Both the position numbers and the translations under genes were made by a program. From assembly GCA_903642325.1 (NCBI GenBank), contig CAHJWM010000011.1, positions 1-64,000 on the forward strand: 64,000 nt of DNA. Reading direction: 5' to 3'. The notes below the pieces were generated by a model that was given only the letters and a program-made list of their open reading frames with translations, had not been told where the DNA came from and searched no databases. This document shows positions 11,255 to 58,999 of this stretch, piece by piece (position 1 is the first letter of the stretch; every line of letters starts with the position of its first letter). This DNA is from Myxococcales bacterium. GTDB lineage: Bacteria > Myxococcota_A > Polyangia > Polyangiales > Polyangiaceae.

Positions 11255-11316
11255 AGCCGGCGGACTTTATCAGAGATTCGACGAAAGCGAGGGCGCACGG
11301 GCGGCTTTTTGTTAGC

Positions 11317-12066
11317 ATGCCGAGCATGGGCGAAAACGCACACGGTGAAACCATCGACGTTCGCGAACGCGGCGGCGATCGCGACGGAATTCCGCAGGTA
11401 TTGGAGCGCCGTCTGTTCATGCAGCTGATGGTCTTCGAGTCGGATAAGAAGGTCGCCCCGGCGGAATCGGTCCGGGATTTAGGCGCGGCCTTGGTACGAC
11501 GGAACGTGGCGAGCGTCGTTTATGAAGACGTGAACAACCCGCACGGTCTCGGTCTGCTTACCTGGAGCGAGGAGCCGCTCGACTTTGCGGACCGGGTGCG
11601 GCCGGTATTCGGGGATCCGGAAGCCGTCAATCTCAGCTTGATCCGCGAGTACACGATGCTCGGGCGCAGCTACTCGACCGGCTTCGAGACGGACCTCGAG
11701 TATTGGCTGCTACGTCGTCCGCGCGAAACCGTGTTGAACCCCGCCTGGCCTTGGGCCGTGTGGTACCCGCTTCGCCGTTCGGGCGCCTTCGAGCGCGTGG
11801 ACGCGCGCGAGCGCGGGGCCATCATGCGCGAGCACTCAGGCATTGGGCGAAACTACGGCGCACAAGATTTGGCCCACGATGTGCGCCTGGCTTGTCACGG
11901 GCTCGACGCCAATGACAACGAGTTCGTGATCGGCTTGATCGGCAAAGACCTGCATCCGCTGTCGCACGTCGTCCAGGCCATGCGCTCCACGCGTCAAACG
12001 TCCGAGTTCATCAATCAAATGGGCCCTTTCTTCGTGGGTCGCGCCGCCTTCCGCCACGCGGGTTGA
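11317..12066 (+). CDS. Chlorite-dismutase-family heme protein
   Basis: The 249-residue protein has the C-terminal half typical of the Cld/coproheme-decarboxylase (HemQ) fold: VWYPLRRSGAF, ERGAIMREHSGIGRNYG, CHGLDANDNEFVIGLIGKDL and MGPFFVGRA. By eye, His194 in ACHGLD lines up with the proximal heme ligand of chlorite dismutases; His173 is a second candidate. Family members either decarboxylate coproheme or break down oxidants. Function here is open. It is divergent from hisZ and 4-10 bases from the HAD phosphatase gene. Confidence 0.8.
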   Translation: MPSMGENAHGETIDVRERGGDRDGIPQVLERRLFMQLMVFESDKKVAPAESVRDLGAALVRRNVASVVYEDVNNPHGLGLLTWSEEPLDFADRVRPVFGDPEAVNLSLIREYTMLGRSYSTGFETDLEYWLLRRPRETVLNPAWPWAVWYPLRRSGAFERVDARERGAIMREHSGIGRNYGAQDLAHDVRLACHGLDANDNEFVIGLIGKDLHPLSHVVQAMRSTRQTSEFINQMGPFFVGRAAFRHAG

Positions 12067-12071
12067 ATGCC

Positions 12072-12779
12072 ATGAGCGCGGCGCAAGATCCCGGTGGGCC
12101 CGCTCGGCTCGGTATCTCGGTCCGCCTCGGCATCGTGTTCGATCTCGATGGCACGTTGATCGATTCGCGCGCGGATATCGCCAATGCGGTCAATCATGCG
12201 CTCGCCGCGCAGGGCGGGGCCACCCTCACGCCGTCCGAGATCGCAGGCTACGTCGGGGATGGCGCGCGCCTGCTCATGGCCCGCGCCGCGAGGCTCGCGC
12301 CCGAATCGCCAGTGGTCGACGCGCTCCTCTCGAGCTTCTTGGCCTACTACCAGGCGCACCCGACCGATCACACTCTGCTCGTACCCGGCGCGCACGAGGC
12401 GCTGGCTCAGCTCGGCCACTTACCGCTCGCGCTGTGCACCAACAAGCCGCGCGCGGTTACGGACGCAGTGCTCGCCAACCTGCGTCTGCCCGCGAAATTT
12501 CGGGCCGTGGTCGCGGGCGGCGACTTGCCTAGGAACAAGCCGGACCCGTTGCCGCTGCAGCACATCGCTCAAATGCTTTCCTTGAACGTGAGCGAGCTGG
12601 TGATGGTCGGCGACGGCGCGCAGGACATCTTGTGCGCGAAGGCCGCTGGCGCGCGCAGTGTGGGGGTCGACGGCGGCATGCAGGCCCGTGATCGGATGCT
12701 GGAAGCGAAACCGGACGTATTCCTGCCAACCCTCGCGGATCTGCCGCGGGTGATCGAGGGCTGGGTCAATCAGTCGTAA
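12072..12779 (+). CDS. gph: HAD-family phosphatase, phosphoglycolate phosphatase-like
   Basis: The nucleophile motif FDLDGTLIDS has Asp24 and Asp26. A helical cap domain, the motif II region LALCTNKPR, the motif III lysine in PRNKPDPLPL and the motif IV VMVGDGAQDIL follow. This set fits Gph, which removes 2-phosphoglycolate made during DNA repair, but HAD substrate ranges are wide. I chose ATG 12072 (235 residues); the frame also opens at TTG 12063, which overlaps the previous stop. Confidence 0.8.
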   Translation: MSAAQDPGGPARLGISVRLGIVFDLDGTLIDSRADIANAVNHALAAQGGATLTPSEIAGYVGDGARLLMARAARLAPESPVVDALLSSFLAYYQAHPTDHTLLVPGAHEALAQLGHLPLALCTNKPRAVTDAVLANLRLPAKFRAVVAGGDLPRNKPDPLPLQHIAQMLSLNVSELVMVGDGAQDILCAKAAGARSVGVDGGMQARDRMLEAKPDVFLPTLADLPRVIEGWVNQS

Positions 12780-47914: not shown

Positions 47915-48304
47915 TCAGGCGCGCGGTTGCGTCACGGTACGCGCGAGGATCTCACGCACCATACGCAGCAGCGCGTCGAACTGAACCGGCTTGCTGAAAA
48001 AAGCGGCAACGTTGCTCGGTCGGGGCAGACTATGGCGAGGGGTGCCGCTCGTCAGAATGACGGGTATCGGCTGGAGCCGTACGTCCTCGAGCATGCGCTC
48101 GCACAGCGTTATGCCGTCCATCTTCGGCATCTTGTAGTCGGCAATCAGCAGATCCACCGTGTTTTCTGCGAGGCGGGCCAAAGCCTCTTCGCCATTGGAA
48201 GCGGTCGCGACGCTGAACCCTTCCCCCGTCAACAGCAGAGCGAGCACCTCGAGCGACGCGAATTCGTCGTCCACGACGAGCACACGGTGCGCCGCATCCG
48301 TCAT
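47915..48304 (-). CDS. Single-domain response regulator
   Basis: A CheY-like receiver of 129 residues. VVDDE carries the acidic pair, Asp56 in IADYKMPKMDG is the phospho-acceptor, VILTSG has the switch Thr/Ser and FFSKP the Lys. There is no output domain, so it relays or competes for phosphate. It follows the KaiC-like gene by 12 bases and is the last gene of a three-gene signalling operon. Confidence 0.92.
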   Translation of the reverse strand: MTDAAHRVLVVDDEFASLEVLALLLTGEGFSVATASNGEEALARLAENTVDLLIADYKMPKMDGITLCERMLEDVRLQPIPVILTSGTPRHSLPRPSNVAAFFSKPVQFDALLRMVREILARTVTQPRA

Positions 48305-48316
48305 CTCACTGGAGCC

Positions 48317-49828
48317 TCAGTAGCCTTCCGGCGTGCGTGGCGTCTCATTGTGCCGAGCCGAGAACTCCTCGGAGTGCGCCACCACCTCGGCGGCGCTGCG
48401 AGCATCCGGTGCAACTTCGATGCCGCGGTCCGTCAGAAAGAACTCGCGGGCGGTGGTTTCGTGCGCGCTCGATCGTTGTTTCACGATTGACACCAGCCGA
48501 CGCAGCTTGGGGCCGATGCTCATGTATTCGAGCAGCAGCAAATTTTCGACCAACGCCGAGATGCCCTCGACGCGCATCTCCATCTCCGGGCCTGACGGCT
48601 TCTTGGTCTCGTCGGTCATGAGCACGGTGATGTCGCGAGCGCGCAGCTCCCCGAGCAACGCGGTGATGAAGCGGATCGTGCGAGTTGGGTCGTAGGCCGC
48701 TTGCCGGAGCCCATCCAAGCTATCGATCAGTACGCGCCGAGCGCCGATCCGTTCGATTTCGGCGAGCAGGCGCCCGCCCAGTTGATCGAGACCAAATTCG
48801 TACGAAGGCTGCCACACATGGGAAAATAGCCCAGTTGCCGCGTGTTCGCTCAACTTGAGGCCGATGCGATCCCCACTTTGAGTGATGCGGTCGGGCGATT
48901 CGTAAAAGCCGAGTAGAACGCCGGCCTCGCCCGCGTCCGCGCCTGCGCTCAGAAAGTGCAGACCAAGGGTGGTTTTACCGCTGCCCGAAAAGCCAAGAGC
49001 GACGGAGGTCGTGCCGCGCAGCACACCGCCACGGAGCATGGTGTCGAGCTCGCGTACGCCGGTCAACACGCGCTCGTCGCTGGCCTTTGCTGGGCGCCCG
49101 GAGCCGTTCAGTAGGTCTTCGAGCCGCGGGTGCACACTGACTCCGTCGACACTTATATGCAATTCGTGGCGTCCGAGTAGGTGTTGCGTGCCGCGAAACT
49201 TGAGCACCTCGATCGTGCGCAACGTGCGGCGCCGGTACTGCTCGAATGCGAGCTCGATCAATCCGTCGACCATGGTGTGCTCGGGGCCGTTGGCGTCCGC
49301 AGCGGTCATATTAGCTAGCAAAACGGTGGTGCAATTGGTCATCGCGCTCAGCATTTGCAGCTCGACGACGAACTCCTTGAGCGCGACGTCACTTTCCGCC
49401 ATGGCGCGCGCTGGAGAGAGCCCATCGATAACGAGTAGGGAAGCCTTCTCGTCCAAGATCACGCGCCGCACCATGTCCAGCAGACCGCGCAGCTTTTCGT
49501 CACGCAGGGCCCGGTAGGCACCGACGTATGACAGACCATCGTTGATCAGGCTCGGGTCGAAGAAACGCATCATCTGCAGGTTCTTCAGCATGGTCGCGTG
49601 CGATTCCGCGAGCAGCGTCATGTAGGCGGCCCGACCGCCCTGCTTCACGTGCTCGAAGCACAGCTGATTGCCGAGCATGGTCTTACCTGTGCCCGGTCGG
49701 CCCATCACGAGGTAAATCGCGCCGCGCACCAAACCGCCGCGCAGCACTGCATCCAAGCCGAAAACGCCGGTTTTAGCCCGCTCTACCAACCCGGGATTGC
49801 TGATTTCGGATGTTGCCTGATCGGTCAT
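48317..49828 (-). CDS. KaiC-like double-domain ATPase
   Basis: Two RecA/KaiC domains in 503 residues. P-loop 1 GRPGTGKT at 43-50 with Walker B LLVIDGLSP, and P-loop 2 GFSGSGKT at 279-286 with RVLIDSLDG. The C-terminal ends of the second domain (EGISALVENLLLLEY, SIVKQR, REFFLTDRGIEV) follow KaiC closely. The KaiC autophosphorylation pair Ser431/Thr432 appears as Ser424/Ala425, so one site is lost. No kaiA or kaiB is present. ATG 49828 overlaps the kinase stop (ATGA). Confidence 0.88.
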   Translation of the reverse strand: MTDQATSEISNPGLVERAKTGVFGLDAVLRGGLVRGAIYLVMGRPGTGKTMLGNQLCFEHVKQGGRAAYMTLLAESHATMLKNLQMMRFFDPSLINDGLSYVGAYRALRDEKLRGLLDMVRRVILDEKASLLVIDGLSPARAMAESDVALKEFVVELQMLSAMTNCTTVLLANMTAADANGPEHTMVDGLIELAFEQYRRRTLRTIEVLKFRGTQHLLGRHELHISVDGVSVHPRLEDLLNGSGRPAKASDERVLTGVRELDTMLRGGVLRGTTSVALGFSGSGKTTLGLHFLSAGADAGEAGVLLGFYESPDRITQSGDRIGLKLSEHAATGLFSHVWQPSYEFGLDQLGGRLLAEIERIGARRVLIDSLDGLRQAAYDPTRTIRFITALLGELRARDITVLMTDETKKPSGPEMEMRVEGISALVENLLLLEYMSIGPKLRRLVSIVKQRSSAHETTAREFFLTDRGIEVAPDARSAAEVVAHSEEFSARHNETPRTPEGY

Positions 49829-51045
49829 TGGTTTCGCGCTAGCCCTCGTCGCCAAAGTATTGCCAAGCCTTCGAGCAGCCGAGGCGGGTCGAGCGGTTTG
49901 CTGACATGCATTTGGAACCCGGCCAAGAGCGCGGCGCGGCTGTCCTCGGTGCTGGCATGACCGGTCAACGCCAGTGCCGGTATGAACGCGCCCGAGCCTT
50001 CCCCGGCGGAGCGCAAGGCACGCATGAAGGTGTGCCCGTCCTCTTCGGGCATGCCCACGTCACACACGATGACATCGGGATGCCGGACACGAATCACGCT
50101 GCGCGCCTCTCGACCCGTCGCCGCGAGCGCCACCTCGGCGCCCTCGCGGACGAGCAAGATCTCGAGCAGCTCCCGGGCATCGGGGTCGTCGTCGATCACG
50201 AGCACATAGGCGCCGCTCAATTTTCTGACAGAGGCAGGCGGCGCTTCGGGCGGAAGCGATGGGGGGCTAGTCTTGCGCAGCAGCGGCAGGCTAATCGTGA
50301 ATTTTGCGCCGTGGCCTTCGCCGGCACTCTCGGCCTCGATCGTTCCGCGATGAGCTTCGATCAGGTACCGCGCAATCGCCAAACCCAAGCCCAAACCACC
50401 TCCACGCGCGCGCGCTAACGGATGCCCGGCCTGCCGAAAGCGCTCGAACAACAATGGCAAGAAGCCCGGGTCGATGCCTCGGCCATCATCCACTACCTCT
50501 AGCAACACGCGGCGTGGCTCGGGGCTAGTGCGCAGCAAGATGTTCCCCCCCGGCTCACAAAACTTGATCGCGTTGTTCAACAGATTCCCGATCACCTGTT
50601 GCAGACGCACGGAATCGCCAGACACCTCGCTCGGTTCGAGACCGAGCTCGAGCGCCAGCCTCAATTTTTTTTCGGCGGCAGCGGGCGCCGCGGCTTCCAC
50701 CGCCGCCTCGACAGTCTTACGAAAGTCTAACGGCGAGAGCTCGACCCGTAACTTGCCGCTGATGATCCGGGAGACGTCCAGCAGATCTTCGATTAGCCGC
50801 GCCTGCAGCTTGGCGTTGCGTAGGATGGTTTCGATGGCGCGGGACTGCTCTGCCGCGCCGAGCGTGCCCTCCTGAAGGATGTGAGCCCAGCCCGTGATCG
50901 CGTTCAGTGGCGTCCGGAGCTCGTGACTCAACGTCGCCAAGAACTCGTCTTTGATACGGTTCGCTTGCTCGGCTTGCGCCCTCAGCGCGCGCTCGTTCTC
51001 GAGCTCCGTCGCCTGCGATTGGTTCTTGTTTCCGCCGCCACGCAT
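49825..51045 (-). CDS. Hybrid histidine kinase with C-terminal receiver
   Basis: A 406-residue cytosolic hybrid kinase without membrane segment or sensor domain. HisKA has LSHELRTPL with His41. The HATPase shows N box NLLNNAIKF, G1 DDGRGID and G2 GGGLGLGLAI. A Pro/Ala linker leads to a receiver with DDDPDARE and phospho-acceptor Asp329 in VIVCDVGMPEEDG. Its input is probably a partner protein; the next gene, coupled by a 4-base overlap, is the KaiC-like ATPase. The 132 bases upstream hold no gene. Confidence 0.93.
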   Translation of the reverse strand: MRGGGNKNQSQATELENERALRAQAEQANRIKDEFLATLSHELRTPLNAITGWAHILQEGTLGAAEQSRAIETILRNAKLQARLIEDLLDVSRIISGKLRVELSPLDFRKTVEAAVEAAAPAAAEKKLRLALELGLEPSEVSGDSVRLQQVIGNLLNNAIKFCEPGGNILLRTSPEPRRVLLEVVDDGRGIDPGFLPLLFERFRQAGHPLARARGGGLGLGLAIARYLIEAHRGTIEAESAGEGHGAKFTISLPLLRKTSPPSLPPEAPPASVRKLSGAYVLVIDDDPDARELLEILLVREGAEVALAATGREARSVIRVRHPDVIVCDVGMPEEDGHTFMRALRSAGEGSGAFIPALALTGHASTEDSRAALLAGFQMHVSKPLDPPRLLEGLAILWRRGLARNQ

Positions 51046-51177: not shown

Positions 51178-52491
51178 TCAGTCGTAGTACTCGTTGCCCA
51201 GGTGCGTGATCAACTCCTCACCCATCATCCAGCGGAGCGTATTTTTGAGCTTCATCGATTGAATGAAGACGTCGTGCTCCGGGTACAGGCCTTCGGCCGT
51301 CTGCGGCGACTTGAAATAGAAGCTCAGCCATTCCTGCACGCCGCGGAAACCGGCGCGTTTGCTCAAATCACCGAACAACGCAAGATCGAGCACCAGGGGC
51401 GCCGCCAAGATCGAATCTCGGCACAAAAAGTCGATTTTGATCTGCATCGGGTAGCCGAGCCAGCCGAAGATATCGATGTTGTCCCAGCCTTCCTTGGCGT
51501 CACCGCGCGGCGGATAATATTCGATACGGACCTTATGATAAAGGTCGCCGTACAGCTCCGGGTTGAGCTCGGGTTGAAAAATAGATTCTAGCGCGCCGAG
51601 CTTGCTGACTTCTTTCGAGCGGAAGCTACCTGGCTCGTCCAGCACCTCTCCATCACGATTGCCGAGGATGTTGGTCGAGAACCAACCCCGCACGCCGAGA
51701 CCACGCGCCTTCAAACCCGGAGCGAGCATGGTCTTCATGAAGGTTTGGCCGGTCTTGAAGTCTTTGCCGCAAATGGGCGTTTGTGTCTCGCGCGCCAGCT
51801 CGATCGCGGCCGGAAAGTCCACCGTGAGATTTGGCGCCCCGTTGGCGAACGGCACTCCCTCCTTCAGGCACGCCCATGCGTACATCATCGAGTTGGCGAT
51901 GCTCGGGTCGCTATCACGCAAGCCCTTCTCGAAGGCGGCGATGGACTGATGAACGGGGCCAGGCTCCAGGTAAATCTCGGTCGAACCGCACCACACGCAC
52001 ACGGCCCGCGAGCAGCCATTGTCTTTGATGAAGTTGCGAATATCAGCGCGAAGTTGCTCCACCATCTCGAATTTAGTGGGCGCGGTTTTCACGTGCGTGC
52101 CGTGCAAGCGCTTGACGAACTCCGGGTAAAACACCGCCTTCATGGGCTTGATCGCGGACAGCTCTTCTTTGATCGGATCGAGGTCCTTGGCGTCCAGCAC
52201 CTTGGCATGTACCGCGGCTTCATAGGCGTTGTCTGGAAACAGATCCCAGCCGCCGAAAACGATGTCTTCCAATCTGGCGAGCGGCGCGAAGTCTTTGATG
52301 CGCGGCACGCGATTGTCAGTGCGCTTGCCGAGCCGAATAGTGCCGCTCTGCGTGATAGACCCGATTGGCTTCACCAAGCCTCTATTAGCGAGCAGCACAC
52401 CGGCCATCAGCGTCGTGGACACGGCGCCCATTCCCGGCAAGAGTACGGCCAGCTTGCCGTTGGCTATTGAAACTTTATCAGGTCGTTGCAT
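51178..52491 (-). CDS. ino1: myo-Inositol-3-phosphate synthase
   Basis: This NAD-dependent enzyme cyclises glucose-6-phosphate to inositol phosphate. The 437-residue protein has LAVLLPGMGAVSTTLMAG (NAD loop), FGGWDLFPDNAYEAAV, CGSTEI, GVPFANGAPNLTVD, CGKDFKTGQTFMKTMLAPG, NILGNRDGEVLDEP and KVRIEYYPPRGDAKEGWDN. All these are Ino1 hallmarks. The gene is divergent from a nucleotidyltransferase gene, separated by a 68-base promoter region with an inverted repeat. Confidence 0.95.
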   Translation of the reverse strand: MQRPDKVSIANGKLAVLLPGMGAVSTTLMAGVLLANRGLVKPIGSITQSGTIRLGKRTDNRVPRIKDFAPLARLEDIVFGGWDLFPDNAYEAAVHAKVLDAKDLDPIKEELSAIKPMKAVFYPEFVKRLHGTHVKTAPTKFEMVEQLRADIRNFIKDNGCSRAVCVWCGSTEIYLEPGPVHQSIAAFEKGLRDSDPSIANSMMYAWACLKEGVPFANGAPNLTVDFPAAIELARETQTPICGKDFKTGQTFMKTMLAPGLKARGLGVRGWFSTNILGNRDGEVLDEPGSFRSKEVSKLGALESIFQPELNPELYGDLYHKVRIEYYPPRGDAKEGWDNIDIFGWLGYPMQIKIDFLCRDSILAAPLVLDLALFGDLSKRAGFRGVQEWLSFYFKSPQTAEGLYPEHDVFIQSMKLKNTLRWMMGEELITHLGNEYYD

Positions 52492-52559: not shown

Positions 52560-53303
52560 ATGAAAACTACGCTAGCGGTGATCTTGGTGGCAGGTCTCGG
52601 GTCACGCCTTCGGCCGATGACTGATGACCGTCCGAAGGCACTCGTGAATATCGGCGGCGAAACGATCTTGGGTAGAGCGGTGCGGTTGCTCGCGGGCTAC
52701 GGAGTGCGAAGAGTCGTACTCGCCACCGGCTACCGCGAAGACGCGGTCAGGGCCGCAATGGAGGGCGCGCCGGTTGCGATCGAGTATTGCAGAAACGCCG
52801 ACTTCGACCGTACGCAAAACTCGGTATCGCTCGCTTTGTGCAGAGCCAGCATCGGCGCCAATGCTTTCTTCAAGCTGGATGGGGATGTCGTCTTCCAGCG
52901 TCAAGTGCTCGACCGTCTCGACGAGTCCAACGCAGAGCTTGCGGTCGCGGTGGACACCGGGCGTCGGCTCGACGCAGAGGCGATGAAAGTGACGCTCTCG
53001 GAGTCGGGGGCTGGATTGAATATCGGTGCATTTGGTAAGGAGATCGAGCTCGATAAAAGTGCGGGTGAAAGCATTGGAATCGAGCGCATTTCGGAGCGCG
53101 CCGCGCCGGCCCTATTGCAAGCCCTGGAAGCAACCGCGCTCGCAGGCGAAACCGGCCTCTATTACGAGGATGTGTATTCACGCCTGATCGCGGCCGGTGT
53201 TCTTCGCGCAGAAGCGGTCACGGTTGGAGACCTGCCATGGACGGAGGTCGACGACTTGAACGACTTAGCCCACGCCCGAGGCCTGGTTAGTAGCGGAGCC
53301 TGA
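52560..53303 (+). CDS. NTP transferase, LicC/PntC/inositol-phosphate cytidylyltransferase-like
   Basis: The 247-residue nucleotidyltransferase starts ILVAGLGSRLRPMTDDRPKAL, the NTP-binding loop. FKLDGDVVF holds the metal Asp. The features AMKVTLSES, SAGESIGIERIS, YYEDVYSRLI and WTEVDDLNDLAHA are found in cytidylyltransferases for small phosphate alcohols and phosphonates. Next to ino1, CTP:inositol-1-phosphate is a likely substrate pair, but choline- or ethanolamine-type substrates are possible. No clear promoter other than the shared region. Confidence 0.75.
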   Translation: MKTTLAVILVAGLGSRLRPMTDDRPKALVNIGGETILGRAVRLLAGYGVRRVVLATGYREDAVRAAMEGAPVAIEYCRNADFDRTQNSVSLALCRASIGANAFFKLDGDVVFQRQVLDRLDESNAELAVAVDTGRRLDAEAMKVTLSESGAGLNIGAFGKEIELDKSAGESIGIERISERAAPALLQALEATALAGETGLYYEDVYSRLIAAGVLRAEAVTVGDLPWTEVDDLNDLAHARGLVSSGA

Positions 53304-53444: not shown

Positions 53445-53581
53445 GGCGCGCCTCGGACACGTGTGTGGTAATTTTACTACAGTGTGTTCAGCCGAATACA
53501 GCGGCGCAGGGCCCTAAGTTATCGAAAGCAATATGTTTTGCCCCCTTGTCACGCCGCGTGCTAAGGCCCATACATCCTTCA

Positions 53582-53620: not shown

Positions 53621-55543
53621 ATGACCGAGCGGCGCGTGACGCGAGCGATCGTACTGGCTGCCGGGACCGGGTCCCGTCTGAGTGATGGGGCCCATGCGGC
53701 TCCCAAGCCCCTACGTGTAGTTGGGGGTGTGCCACTGATCGTGCGTGTGCTCCGAACCCTGCACAGCGCGGGTATTCAGGAGGCGGTCGTGGTCACCGGT
53801 TTTCAAGGCGAGCTCGTCCGTCAGGCGCTCGCGTCGGAGACGAATCTCGGGCTCAAGCTAACGTTCGTAGACAATCCGCACTTCGACAAGAAGAACGGCG
53901 TCAGCTTGCTGAGCGCGGGGGCATATGTGGACCGTGAGTGCCTACTCACCATGTCCGATCATTTGTACTCGCCGGAACTGGTGCGGCGTTTGCTGTCGGC
54001 GGAGGTACCGGAGGGTTCGTGCGCGCTGGCCGTGGACTACGACATGGAGCGCTGCTTCGATCTCGACGATGCAACGAAGGTGGGTGTCGAGCTCGGTAGG
54101 ATCAAGCGCATCGGCAAGGAGCTCGAAAGCTACGAAGCGCTCGATACGGGTGTGTTTCGCATCGGCCCCGCCTTGATCGCCGAGCTAGCGGCGGTCGAAG
54201 CTAGCGCGGGCGACTGCTCCTTGAGCGACGGAGTTCAAGCGCTCAGCCGCCGGGGCCGTTTCTTGGCAACGGACGTAGGCGACGTCCGTTGGGTCGACGT
54301 AGACACCCCGCAGGCGTTGGCCTGTGCCGAGGCGATGCTGCGTGTTTTCGGCGACACACTTGGGGACGAACCAGGCAGTGGCCAGCCACCAATCATCGAT
54401 CCGGAAAGCATCGAATTTTATGCGCCGAGCTGGGTACGGGCGGCCAAACCTTACAATGAAGACCATTTCGCGGTCGCCGACGGCCAGAGCGATCTGCTGC
54501 GCATGATGTCGAACGAGAGCCCGTACACGCCGAGCCCACGCGTGATCAAGGCCATCGTGGAAGCCGCGACGAGGGGTAATTTTTACCCGGGCGGTGCCCC
54601 GGCGTTGCGTGCGAAGCTCGCCCGGCGCGACCATCAAGTCGATGGCAGCGTGATCTTGGGCGCGGGCTCCACCGAGCTCATCGACCTGGTCATCCGCACG
54701 TTCGTCGGTCCCGGCGAGGAAGTGCTGCTCAGTGTTCCCACGTTCAGCATGTACGAGGCGCGTACCCGCACCGTCGGCGGGATTCCTGTGCTCGTGCCCA
54801 TGACAGAGGCGCATGATCACGATCTCAACGGCCTCATCCGAGGGGTGACCGAGCGCACGAAGCTGGTTTTTCTGTGCACCCCGAACAACCCCACCGGCGG
54901 GCGCATTACGGAGGCGGACTTGCGGCGTTTGTTGAGGCTCGGCTTGCCGACCGTGATCGACGAAGCGTACCACGAGTTCAGCGAGGGTGATTCGTTCGCA
55001 CGCTTGCTCTCGGAATTCCCGAACGCCATCGTGCTCCGCACTTTCTCGAAGGCCTTCGGGCTGGCAGGGATTCGCTTGGGCTATGCGTTGGCGCACCCGG
55101 CGGTCGTGCGCCTTTTGTCACGCGTCAAAGTGCCATGGAACATCCCTGGCATCACCCTGGCCGCCGCCAGCGCCGCGCTCGACGACGCGGCCGAGTTCGA
55201 TGCGCGGATGAGCGAGCTTCGGCAATCGCGCGAGGAGCTGACCGAGCGACTGCTGCGCATCGAGGGTCTTTTACCCGTGCCGAGCGACGGCAACTTCGTG
55301 CTCATCGATGTATCCGCCACCGGACAGAGTGCCGAGCGGATCGTCGAATCCATGCTCAAGGATGGCGTTCTCATTCGCTCGCTTTCAGTACACCACGCCA
55401 AACGCAGCTATGTTCGGGTGACGGTGGGCACGCGTGAACAAAACCTACGCTGCCTGGCTGCCTTCGAGCGCGTGTTGGGCAGCACTCGCCCCCGCCGCGA
55501 TGGCCCGAGGCCTTACGTCGCCGTCGTGAGCGATGCCGAGTAG
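53621..55543 (+). CDS. Cytidylyltransferase-aminotransferase fusion protein
   Basis: A single 640-residue chain. Residues 6-240 form a nucleotidyltransferase: VLAAGTGSRL, PKPLRVVGGVPLI, NPHFDKKNGVSLL, LLTMSDHLYSPELV and LDTGVFRIGP, most like inositol-1-phosphate cytidylyltransferases. Residues 292-625 form a HisC-type fold-I PLP enzyme: MSNESPYTPSPRVI, LGAGSTELIDLVI, TPNNPTGG, VIDEAYHEFS and TFSKAFGLAGIRLGY with PLP Lys477. The second half could transaminate or decarboxylate a phosphorylated substrate. ATG 53621 fits the domain start; the frame is open back to 53465. Confidence 0.88.
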   Translation: MTERRVTRAIVLAAGTGSRLSDGAHAAPKPLRVVGGVPLIVRVLRTLHSAGIQEAVVVTGFQGELVRQALASETNLGLKLTFVDNPHFDKKNGVSLLSAGAYVDRECLLTMSDHLYSPELVRRLLSAEVPEGSCALAVDYDMERCFDLDDATKVGVELGRIKRIGKELESYEALDTGVFRIGPALIAELAAVEASAGDCSLSDGVQALSRRGRFLATDVGDVRWVDVDTPQALACAEAMLRVFGDTLGDEPGSGQPPIIDPESIEFYAPSWVRAAKPYNEDHFAVADGQSDLLRMMSNESPYTPSPRVIKAIVEAATRGNFYPGGAPALRAKLARRDHQVDGSVILGAGSTELIDLVIRTFVGPGEEVLLSVPTFSMYEARTRTVGGIPVLVPMTEAHDHDLNGLIRGVTERTKLVFLCTPNNPTGGRITEADLRRLLRLGLPTVIDEAYHEFSEGDSFARLLSEFPNAIVLRTFSKAFGLAGIRLGYALAHPAVVRLLSRVKVPWNIPGITLAAASAALDDAAEFDARMSELRQSREELTERLLRIEGLLPVPSDGNFVLIDVSATGQSAERIVESMLKDGVLIRSLSVHHAKRSYVRVTVGTREQNLRCLAAFERVLGSTRPRRDGPRPYVAVVSDAE

Positions 55544-55567: not shown

Positions 55568-56521
55568 ATGGTGCGAAAGGTCGACGAGCGTTTCTGGGAC
55601 GCGTATTTCAGTAGTCTCAAACCGTTAGAGGTCGAAGAGCCGATCGACGTTTGGGTGCACCGGCCGCCGGCCTATGTGCTGGCGCGCATCTTGATGCCCA
55701 CGCCGGTATCACCCAACTTGGTGACGCTGGGCTCGATTGTTTTGGGATGCGCCGCGGGCGCCGCAATCTTTACGACCTTCCGGTGGCATCTGCCGCTTGC
55801 AGGAGTCCTAGTATTCTGCTCCGCGGTACTCGATTGCGCTGACGGGCAGCTCGCGCGTTTGCGGAAAAGCTCCTCGGCTCTCGGTCGGATGCTGGACGGG
55901 GTGGCCGATCTGGTGGTGTCGACGGTAGTCGTCGGCGGCGGCGCTTGGCTCGTGATGCAGAAGTATCATGATCCATCTTGGGTGTTCCTGCTGGCCGTGG
56001 TGCTGACCGTCGCGACGATCCTCACCGGTTCGTTCCACACCACGATGTACGATGAGTTCAAGAACGTCTTTTTGCGGATGACGCATGCGAGTTACCGTGA
56101 AGGCGAGGATCTAGAAGTTGCCGAGCGTCGCTTCCACGAACAGCGCTCGCGGATGACCAAAGGCCTGTCATTGGCCTGGGGCGTGTATTTCTTTTACATG
56201 CGCAGTCAGAAAAACTACGCACGCAAGTTCGATCCTGGTGCGGAGCGCCTGCTCGGGACGTGTCCGGACTTCGACGAGCGGAACGCGGCCATCTACCGTA
56301 AGCACGCGGGAACGGTGATGCGCGTGTGGCGCAATTATTTTGGCTTCGGCTCGTTGCTGTTTGGTCTGGCGCTGTCCATCGCCTGCAACCTGACCGAGTA
56401 TTACCTGCTCTTCAGACTGGTCCTGCTGAATGCTGTGTTCTACGGCTACCTTCGGCCGCGCCAGCGACGAGCGACGGAACGGTCGCTGACCGAAATTCAG
56501 GCGCTTTCGACCGCCGCCTGA
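55568..56521 (+). CDS. CDP-alcohol phosphatidyltransferase-family membrane enzyme
   Basis: The full family motif D-x2-DG-x2-AR-x8-G-x3-D-x3-D occurs at Asp89, Asp92-Gly93, Ala96-Arg97, Gly106, Asp110 and Asp114. Several membrane helices surround it (LVTLGSIVLGCAAGAAIF; AGVLVFCSAVL; VFLLAVVLTVATILTG). Enzymes of this family swap CMP for an alcohol, making phosphatidylinositol, PE, or di-inositol phosphate. A charged insert (about residues 150-240) is unusual. It starts 24 bases after the fusion gene and likely uses its CDP-product. Confidence 0.88.
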   Translation: MVRKVDERFWDAYFSSLKPLEVEEPIDVWVHRPPAYVLARILMPTPVSPNLVTLGSIVLGCAAGAAIFTTFRWHLPLAGVLVFCSAVLDCADGQLARLRKSSSALGRMLDGVADLVVSTVVVGGGAWLVMQKYHDPSWVFLLAVVLTVATILTGSFHTTMYDEFKNVFLRMTHASYREGEDLEVAERRFHEQRSRMTKGLSLAWGVYFFYMRSQKNYARKFDPGAERLLGTCPDFDERNAAIYRKHAGTVMRVWRNYFGFGSLLFGLALSIACNLTEYYLLFRLVLLNAVFYGYLRPRQRRATERSLTEIQALSTAA

Positions 56522-56542: not shown

Positions 56543-58999
56543 GTGCGCCCCTCGACCCTTTTGCTGATTGGCCTGTTGCTCACTTCGAGCGCGAGAGCCC
56601 AGGCCGCGCTCTGGCCTAGCAGCGTTCTGCGTGTCGAGCGGGATCTACAAAGTCAAGACGTCGAGGTTCGGCGCCGAGCCGCGCAGCTTTTGCGCGACTT
56701 GCCGGCGAGCAGCGCCGCGCGCTTGGCTGGTCGAGCGTTGGACGACTCCGATCTCGACGTACGGCTGGCCGCCCTCGACGCGAGCCTGGGAGCGAGCCTG
56801 CCAGGCCTCGGGGATCGACTGGTGCCTTGGTTGACCGACGGCGAGCGCCGGCTACGGCTGGCCGCGGCCGAGGCCCTGACCGAGAGCCCGAGTCCCCGCG
56901 CGGTGTCGTCACTCGGCCGCGCTCTGGGCGACGCCGATCCAGGGGTGCGTAGCGCGGCCGCGCAGGCCTTGGGTCGGTCCGGCGCCCCCGAGGCCGCGCT
57001 GGCTCTGCTTGGCCACCTCGACGACTCCGTGCCGGAGGTCAGAAGGGACGTGGCGCTCGCGCTTGGGGAGCTTGGCGACTTGCGCGCCGTGGTGCCGCTA
57101 ATCGGGAAGATTCAAGATGCGCGGCCGATAGTGCGTGAAGGGGTGGCTGAGGCGCTGGCGCGACTCGCTGACCCGCGATCTGTAAGCGCGCTCGTGCTTT
57201 CGCTCCACGACGCAGACGATGGCGTGCGCATCGCGGCGCTCGGCGCGCTGTCGCGTATCGCCGATCCGAGCACCGTTGCGAGCATCGGCGCCGTTCTTCC
57301 GGGTAGCGTCGATGACGTACACTCCGCGGCGTTGGACGCGCTCTCGCATATCCGTAGTCCGGGGGCGACGAAGACTCTGATCGATGAGCTGCGCAGCGAC
57401 CGCTCCGGTGGCGCGCGCTCGGAGGCCGTGGCTGCGCTCGGGCGTTCGGGCAGCTTCGCATCGCCGGCACTGACGGCTTGCTTGAGCGCAGAATCGGATG
57501 CCGATCGCCTCGGGGACTGCGCGCTCGCGCTCGGTCGAACCCACGATGTAGCCGGCGCGCTTGCGATTCAGGGCGCACTGCGCCGTGGCACGTTGCCGGC
57601 CCTGCCCGCGCTTGTGGCGCTGTCCGAGTTACGCGCGCCCGAATCACTACCCGCAGTGCTGGAGTACTTGGCAGATCCGGACGTGCTGGTGCGGCGCGCG
57701 GCGCGTATGGCGACCCGGGTCTTGCTCGACCCTCGCCGTCCTGACGGTAGAGCCGTGGAACCGATTTCTCACGCGCTCTCCTCGGTGTCCGGCGACCCCG
57801 CGGAGCTGAGCGAGCTTTTGGAGCTGCTTGGCCAAACAGGCTCGCCGCGTGCGGCCCTGATTTTGCTCCCATACGCCAGTGCCGGCGACAACGTGGTTGC
57901 ACGCACGCGTGCTCTGTCGGCTCTAGGATTCCTGGGCGAGGCGGGCCAAGGTCCGACGTTGCTGAACGCGCTCGACGATAAGGGCTCCGGAAGCGTCCGG
58001 CTCGCCGCCGCGCTCGCGCTCGGCCGCCTTCGCTTGCCTGGCCGGGCGCTGCCTCTGCTAGACCGCCTGCAGCACGGCAACGAGGCAGAGCGGCTGCTCT
58101 TGACGCTGGCGCTGGCGCAGACGATCGCCACGGAGCGCGACCCGAAGGTCGAAGCGCGGCTCGAGCGGCTTCTCCGCGACAGCCAAGGTGGGGAGCGGGA
58201 CGCCTTGATCGAATTGTTTGGTCGCATGCCCACCGCGCTGGCCAGTCAACGGCTGAGTCACTTGACGACGGGGCTCATGCGGACTGCAGATCGGGCGAAA
58301 TTTGCGGAATCCTTGGCGGCGCAGCCGGCGGAGCGGGGGCGGCTCGCACCGTTACTGCGAGACCCGAACGCCCTCGTGCGCGCGAACGCGGCATGGTCCT
58401 TGGGCGAGGTCGGTCTAGCCGCCGACAACGCCGCGCTGCAGGTTGCGCTCGCCGACTCGGATGTGAAGGTCGCGGGCAACGCGCTGCAAGCATTGGCGCT
58501 CATCGCGGTCCGTACTCACGGCCGGATCGCCGCGCAAGCCTGCGCGCACGCCACCGGCGCGAGACCGCTGCTCCGCGCGCTCGCATATCGAGCTTTGCGC
58601 GTGACCGGCGAGCGTTGCCCGCGGGGTGAGGAAATCACCGCGCTCAGCCGAGACCGTCATGAATTCGTGCGTCAGTCGGCGGCCACCCTGCTACGCGACG
58701 TGCCCGAGAGCGCGGAAGACGAGCGCGCCTTGCAGCGCGCTCGTGATCGCGATCCGAGTGGCGCGGTGGCCGCCGAATGCGCGGCGCCTCGCCAAGCTCT
58801 TGTCACGAGCCCAGAGCCGACGGTCGTGCTCGTCATTCCCGCCGGTGAGGACGCGCCGCGGCCCGGCCAGCCCTTTGCATTGTTGCGGGCCGACGGCCTC
58901 GTTCGGCTCGGGGTGTCCGACCGCCGTGGCCAATTGTTCGAGGTGGCGGCCCCGCACGGGCCATTGTCGCTGCTCGGGCTGTCTTCCGAGCTCGAATGA
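56543..58999 (+). CDS. Exported HEAT-repeat protein
   Basis: GTG 56543 begins an 818-residue protein with signal peptide (LLLIGLLLTSSARAQA). Nearly the whole length is HEAT/PBS-lyase-like repeats of about 31 residues, e.g. DVEVRRRAAQLLRDL, DPGVRSAAAQALGRSG, DDGVRIAALGALSRI and PNALVRANAAWSLGEVG. This is a large curved scaffold in the periplasm or surface. The C-terminal 80 residues differ (VVLVIPAGEDAPRPGQPFAL). It follows the CDP-alcohol gene by 21 bases. Confidence 0.8.
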   Translation: MRPSTLLLIGLLLTSSARAQAALWPSSVLRVERDLQSQDVEVRRRAAQLLRDLPASSAARLAGRALDDSDLDVRLAALDASLGASLPGLGDRLVPWLTDGERRLRLAAAEALTESPSPRAVSSLGRALGDADPGVRSAAAQALGRSGAPEAALALLGHLDDSVPEVRRDVALALGELGDLRAVVPLIGKIQDARPIVREGVAEALARLADPRSVSALVLSLHDADDGVRIAALGALSRIADPSTVASIGAVLPGSVDDVHSAALDALSHIRSPGATKTLIDELRSDRSGGARSEAVAALGRSGSFASPALTACLSAESDADRLGDCALALGRTHDVAGALAIQGALRRGTLPALPALVALSELRAPESLPAVLEYLADPDVLVRRAARMATRVLLDPRRPDGRAVEPISHALSSVSGDPAELSELLELLGQTGSPRAALILLPYASAGDNVVARTRALSALGFLGEAGQGPTLLNALDDKGSGSVRLAAALALGRLRLPGRALPLLDRLQHGNEAERLLLTLALAQTIATERDPKVEARLERLLRDSQGGERDALIELFGRMPTALASQRLSHLTTGLMRTADRAKFAESLAAQPAERGRLAPLLRDPNALVRANAAWSLGEVGLAADNAALQVALADSDVKVAGNALQALALIAVRTHGRIAAQACAHATGARPLLRALAYRALRVTGERCPRGEEITALSRDRHEFVRQSAATLLRDVPESAEDERALQRARDRDPSGAVAAECAAPRQALVTSPEPTVVLVIPAGEDAPRPGQPFALLRADGLVRLGVSDRRGQLFEVAAPHGPLSLLGLSSELE

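Follow-up and report, generated by a model that had tools for sequence, protein, structure and literature searches.

Chains in which a cytidylyltransferase is followed by a fold-I aminotransferase are known from phosphonate metabolism, where PntC-AepT of Treponema denticola (Tde1415, 6PD1/6PD2) carries a PntC domain and a class V aminotransferase. The PntC residues positioned for binding the aminoethylphosphonate amine are Glu104 and Glu196, and their equivalents in LicC are Asp105 and Asp192 (PMC6697681). CTP:inositol-1-phosphate cytidylyltransferase (IPCT) is encoded in loci that also contain an inositol-phosphate synthase gene and a CDP-alcohol phosphotransferase gene, and in the fusion already known, IPCT-DIPPS, IPCT is joined to a CDP-alcohol phosphotransferase. 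According to PMC9246714, hyperthermophiles are reported to use CDP-inositol for their inositol lipids, and such use is proposed for some Bacteroidetes.

In the window, which is the whole stretch of 64,000 nucleotides that was analysed, an IPCT-like domain carries a PLP domain at its C-terminal end instead, and the locus has the synthase and phosphotransferase genes typical of IPCT loci. Although the domain order is that of PntC-AepT, both halves belong to other branches (IPCT against PntC; HisC-like class I/II against class V). The genes and domains concerned are as follows.

51178..52491, minus strand: myo-inositol-1-phosphate synthase, divergently transcribed (PF07994, E 1.8e-98), a neighbour of the IPCT gene in the majority of related loci
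52560..53303, plus strand: second cytidylyltransferase (NTP2), PntC/LicC-like by profile, fold and alignment, with the acidic pair D107/E203 of the amine pocket
53621..55543, plus strand: fused gene of 640 amino acids, IPCT-like cytidylyltransferase domain and HisC-like PLP domain (ORF and profiles)
53621..54355, plus strand: N-terminal domain, residues 1-245, CTP:inositol-1-phosphate cytidylyltransferase-like, with R19, K29, D113 and D228 kept
54356..54433, plus strand: interdomain linker region, residues 246-271
54434..55471, plus strand: C-terminal fold-I PLP domain, residues 272-617, HisC-like, in a separate clade (profiles, tree and fold)
55049..55051, plus strand: codon of Lys477, the PLP-binding lysine (alignment to E. 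coli HisC)
55568..56521, plus strand: CDP-alcohol phosphotransferase, membrane enzyme (profile and motif)
56543..58999, plus strand: HEAT-repeat protein of 818 amino acids, conserved neighbour (profile and related loci)

The fused ORF was taken to begin with the ATG at 53621. The longest mechanical ORF, from an upstream GTG at 53465, comprises 692 amino acids; the relatives of the fused protein begin at or near the ATG. The N-half was complete by profile: Pfam PF12804 (NTP_transf_3) covers residues 9-144, and the IPCT part of the NCBIfam IPCT-DIPPS model (NF041135) covers residues 8-240. The C-half was likewise complete, matching Aminotran_1_2 (PF00155, class I/II) at residues 291-613 (E 1.3e-55) and TIGR01141 (HisC) at residues 272-617 with 303.3 bits, over the equivalog cut-off of 276.55. 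Lys477 lies in an SK motif and corresponds to K214 of E. coli HisC. The initial annotation had described two complete halves and Lys477 in a single reading frame, and the profiles, the HisC alignment and the orthologues confirm this. An AlphaFold model of the fused protein (mean pLDDT 80.7, pTM 0.54) comprised two folded domains with a linker of low confidence between them, around residues 250-269, and therefore the mutual arrangement of the domains is not fixed by the model. Chance or an assembly error is excluded as the source of this reading frame, because dozens of independent genomes encode full-length orthologues with 56-71% identity.

When 145 related genomes were compared, about 51 had the fusion, and these belong without exception to three families (f1, f6 and f8) of the window's order. 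In a 377-genome sample of the phylum, no full-length fusion was detected outside these families, and separate halves only were seen there. A scan of a genome collection covering 84,980 species returned fused copies only from Myxococcota-type records (titled Polyangiaceae, Myxococcales, Deltaproteobacteria and similar). The same scan gave unfused IPCTs, among others from Polyangium, Rhodothermus and Gracilimonas, and unfused relatives of the C-half from Anaerolineae. No description of an IPCT/HisC-like fusion was found in a literature search of mainly freely available papers, and the novelty of the fusion is provisional.

Among solved structures, the nearest relatives of the N-half were the IPCT of A. 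fulgidus (2XME, E 7.5e-24; 4MND, E 3.9e-23) and next that of T. maritima (4JD0, 1.4e-13), with PntC (E 4.2e-5) and LicC (1.7e-4) far behind. A comparison of 41 stand-alone IPCT relatives with 37 fused proteins gave 48 positions that at least 95% of the former conserve, and at every one of them the fused proteins have the same majority residue. Among the motif residues, K29, D113 and D228 were invariant in 23 fused proteins, and R19 was nearly so. The unfused related IPCT genes lie mostly beside an inositol-phosphate synthase gene, without NTP2 and without the C-half; in Rhodothermus, which belongs among these relatives, the phosphotransferase, synthase and IPCT genes stand in one row. The initial assignment of this half as inositol-phosphate-cytidylyltransferase-like is thus upheld by the closeness of A. 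fulgidus IPCT, the 48 conserved positions and the adjoining synthase gene. It is very probable that the N-half is an IPCT, and CDP-inositol synthesis is the activity predicted from its sequence.

A profile search of solved structures with NTP2 placed PntC first (85.7 bits) and LicC second (82.3 bits), and a Foldseek search with a confident model (pLDDT 95.7) ranked PntC with its product (6PD2) first and LicC sixth, although the identity to these enzymes is about 20%. D107 and E203 of NTP2 aligned with Glu104 and Glu196 of PntC, so that the acidic pair of the amine pocket is common to the three enzymes. The pair was invariant in 17 orthologues, and NTP2 homologues detached from the fusion locus retained it in all but one case (L215, Asn for D107). 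In contrast, the two positions are occupied by Met and Ser in the fused IPCT domain. Therefore, NTP2 and not the fused domain is predicted to act on an amine phosphate.

The distribution of NTP2 was compared with that of the fusion, presence being defined as a score of 180 bits or more and one undecidable genome being left out. Of the 51 fusion genomes, 48 had NTP2, as against 3 of the 93 remaining genomes. These counts come from genomes that are not phylogenetically independent and are in many cases incomplete, and adjacency explains most of the co-occurrence. In two of the fusion genomes (G047 and G073), the NTP2 score was close to that of the three genomes that have NTP2 but no fusion. NTP2 was located elsewhere than at the fusion locus in nine fusion genomes, and in five of these (G012, G030, G036, G051 and G087) it was clearly beside a full-length CDP-alcohol phosphotransferase gene. 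G050 does not carry the fusion, and one of its gene clusters (L216, 7545-10331) encodes an NTP2 homologue together with a CDP-alcohol phosphotransferase and a HisC-like protein that has 29% identity to the C-half. A DegT-type aminotransferase gene adjoins NTP2 in G044.

The set of synthase, NTP2, fusion, phosphotransferase and HEAT-repeat protein genes recurred in most fusion loci in slightly varied order. The phosphotransferase at 55568-56521 has the motif D-x2-D-G-x2-A-R-x8-G-x3-D-x3-D, in which D89, D92, G93, A96, R97, G106, D110 and D114 were invariant, and it weakly resembles AF2299, CEPT1 and IPCT-DIPPS. In a phosphotransferase tree, the window type grouped weakly (83/90) with the inositol-linked enzymes, and most partners of detached NTP2 fell outside. 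A second CDP-alcohol phosphotransferase, 66% identical to this one, is encoded in the window's own genome at 11292-12320 of locus L099 (contig C64), with the other module genes not nearby, and is a candidate for the second donor.

Several further observations were made in and around these loci. The HEAT-repeat protein gene also follows the module at loci with an unfused IPCT (L057, L058 and L062). On contig C72 of the same genome (L098/L100), a 469-aa protein combines a divergent N-terminal region, nucleotidyltransferase-like by eye, with a CDP-alcohol phosphotransferase in the IPCT-DIPPS arrangement, and on contig C60 (L103, 5012-8483) a CDP-alcohol phosphotransferase gene lies between genes that are class III aminotransferase-like and oxidoreductase-like by eye. 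At 47915-51045 of the window, what appears by eye to be a two-domain KaiC-like ATPase (48317-49855) is encoded with a response regulator on one side and a hybrid histidine kinase on the other.

The C-half was compared with HisC (8BJ1/8BJ3, 1FG3 and 1GEX). Its fold is that of HisC (TM-score 0.90 on 8BJ3, normalised by target), and a plant HisC was its best solved relative. The E. coli HisC residues Y55, N157, D184, Y187, S213, K214, R222 and R335 were present in all aligned C-half rows, and Y20 and R346 in nearly all; the residues checked include those of the PLP and phosphate sites. The initial description of a HisC-like PLP enzyme therefore agrees with the TIGR01141 score, the residues and the fold. 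On the other hand, in a maximum-likelihood tree the fused C-halves formed one clade (100/99) on a long branch, which was joined by Chloroflexota enzymes at 100/100. E. coli HisC and the two other HisC-like proteins of the window's genome, both over the TIGR01141 cut-off, lay outside this combined clade, and a grouping of the C-half with bona fide HisC was not found in the tree. One of these two genes lies between genes that by eye resemble chorismate mutase and aroA. The C-half also differs from HisC in its fusion to an IPCT and its linkage to headgroup genes. CobD, the threonine-phosphate decarboxylase (1LC5, E 5e-25), is related in fold and in its type of phosphorylated substrate. None of the searched genomes yielded a CobD above the cut-off, and therefore true CobD is absent from the trees.

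Chloroflexota relatives of the C-half adjoin an FGGY kinase gene at L164, L165 and L235, and by eye at L247 as well. At L250 and similar loci, the relative is clustered with genes for a protein of the choline/ethanolamine-kinase family, a class II aldolase, a HAD phosphatase and a DAO-GCV_T oxidase. This cluster (L250, 4504-12805), conserved also at L248, L251 and L252, includes an amino acid permease gene and looks like an uncharacterised amino-alcohol pathway. Small phosphorylated alcohols or amino alcohols, and not histidine, are the compounds that the Chloroflexota neighbours suggest, and the kinases fit amino alcohol breakdown no less than synthesis.

Beside the domain identities, conservation, linkage and co-occurrence, the separate clade of the C-half and the acidic pair of NTP2, all of which are observed, the gene neighbours suggest that the locus supplies two kinds of lipid headgroup rather than serving histidine or phosphonate synthesis. 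In the reading that we prefer, to which we give a probability of roughly 45%, the fused chain makes both CDP-inositol and a phosphorylated amino alcohol, and NTP2, not the fused domain, activates the amine with CTP. The N-half would convert the inositol phosphate from the neighbouring synthase into CDP-inositol. The C-half, derived from HisC with a changed substrate, would form a phosphorylated amino alcohol; the likeliest reaction is of the HisC type, the transamination of a ketone phosphate (R-CO-CH2-O-PO3). NTP2 (52560-53303) would then activate this amine product with CTP, and the CDP-alcohol phosphotransferase at 55568-56521 or a paralogue would pass the headgroups to lipid. All substrates and products of this scheme, and the CDP-alcohol that the phosphotransferase would use, are inferred. 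It is doubtful, though conceivable, that the C-half represents a new PLP subfamily that makes a phosphorylated amino alcohol by transamination, turning for instance dihydroxyacetone phosphate into serinol phosphate, and that, with NTP2 and the phosphotransferase, it forms an undescribed bacterial CDP-amino-alcohol route fused to CDP-inositol synthesis.

The same pathway could operate with a C-half that is a CobD-like decarboxylase: it would turn O-phosphoserine into phosphoethanolamine, or phosphothreonine into aminopropanol phosphate, and NTP2 would go on to make CDP-ethanolamine. Phosphoserine is universally available, CobD and HisC are related, and two fused domains (221 and 214 bits) were among the four best scores of the CobD model (TIGR01140) in 95 genomes. 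However, this model gave 195.2 bits for the window's C-half and 221 for the best fused relative against a cut-off of 290.55, whereas the HisC model was passed; the kinases beside the Chloroflexota relatives would already make a phosphorylated substrate; and cobalamin genes were not observed in the loci inspected. We favour transamination over decarboxylation, since HisC is nearer by model score and the Chloroflexota kinases would point to phosphorylated alcohols as substrates, and we consider the decarboxylase unlikely. The same literature search did not find a phosphoserine-decarboxylase/CDP-ethanolamine route in bacteria. Phosphatidylserine decarboxylase was present in 135 of the 145 genomes, so that ethanolamine lipids need no second route, a point against the preferred reading as well; the idea that the fusion replaces this decarboxylase was not supported. 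Six of the ten genomes without phosphatidylserine decarboxylase carry the fusion or its fragment, which genome incompleteness may explain. The C-half might instead be one more ordinary aminotransferase, for histidinol phosphate or aromatic substrates, that was joined to the IPCT by an accident of gene order and plays no part in headgroup chemistry. Its score over the HisC equivalog cut-off leaves some probability to a histidinol phosphate activity and so counts against the preferred reading, and the retained HisC residues and the plant HisC as best solved relative point the same way. Against an ordinary HisC stand the two other HisC-like genes of the genome, the separate clade on its long branch, and the occurrence of the fusion in three families, where it is tied to NTP2. 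Such a role seems rather improbable.

The initial annotation had interpreted the domains correctly, but no support was found for its proposal of a chain that both produces an amino alcohol phosphate and uses its own N-half to activate this product with CTP. Two complete halves in one chain and the domain order of PntC-AepT speak for such self-contained activation, as does the varying substrate of cytidylyltransferases of this family (PMC12275187). The N-half, however, keeps all 48 IPCT positions and lacks the amine-binding acids, and the inositol-phosphate synthase gene adjoins in most loci; the neighbouring NTP2, which has the acidic pair and co-occurs with the fusion, is the better candidate for the amine, and we regard activation by the fused chain as quite improbable. 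A phosphonate enzyme of the PntC-AepT kind, named initially as the main alternative, shares with the fusion its overall domain order. No class V aminotransferase match was obtained in the C-half with Pfam, and the N-half is nearer to IPCT than to PntC by the E values given above. PEP mutase (TIGR02320) had no match in the window's own genome, and in those fusion genomes that have the gene it lies on a different contig from the fusion. Orthologues always next to pepM/ppd genes, the pattern named at the outset as speaking against the amino alcohol interpretation, were thus not observed. The phosphonate pathway was rejected on these three grounds, and its probability is negligible.

The preferred reading, in which the fused chain makes CDP-inositol and a phosphorylated amino alcohol that NTP2 activates, bears on a poorly charted field, the building of bacterial lipid headgroups outside the CDP-diacylglycerol route. 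The fused IPCT-PLP enzyme, NTP2 and the phosphotransferase form a compact, testable candidate set for CTP activation of the headgroup rather than of the lipid. In addition, the locus points to a PLP subfamily with Chloroflexota relatives whose members are labelled simply as HisC by current models. If the C-half does represent a new subfamily within an undescribed CDP-amino-alcohol route, that route would give a lipid with an unusual amine headgroup in Polyangiales.
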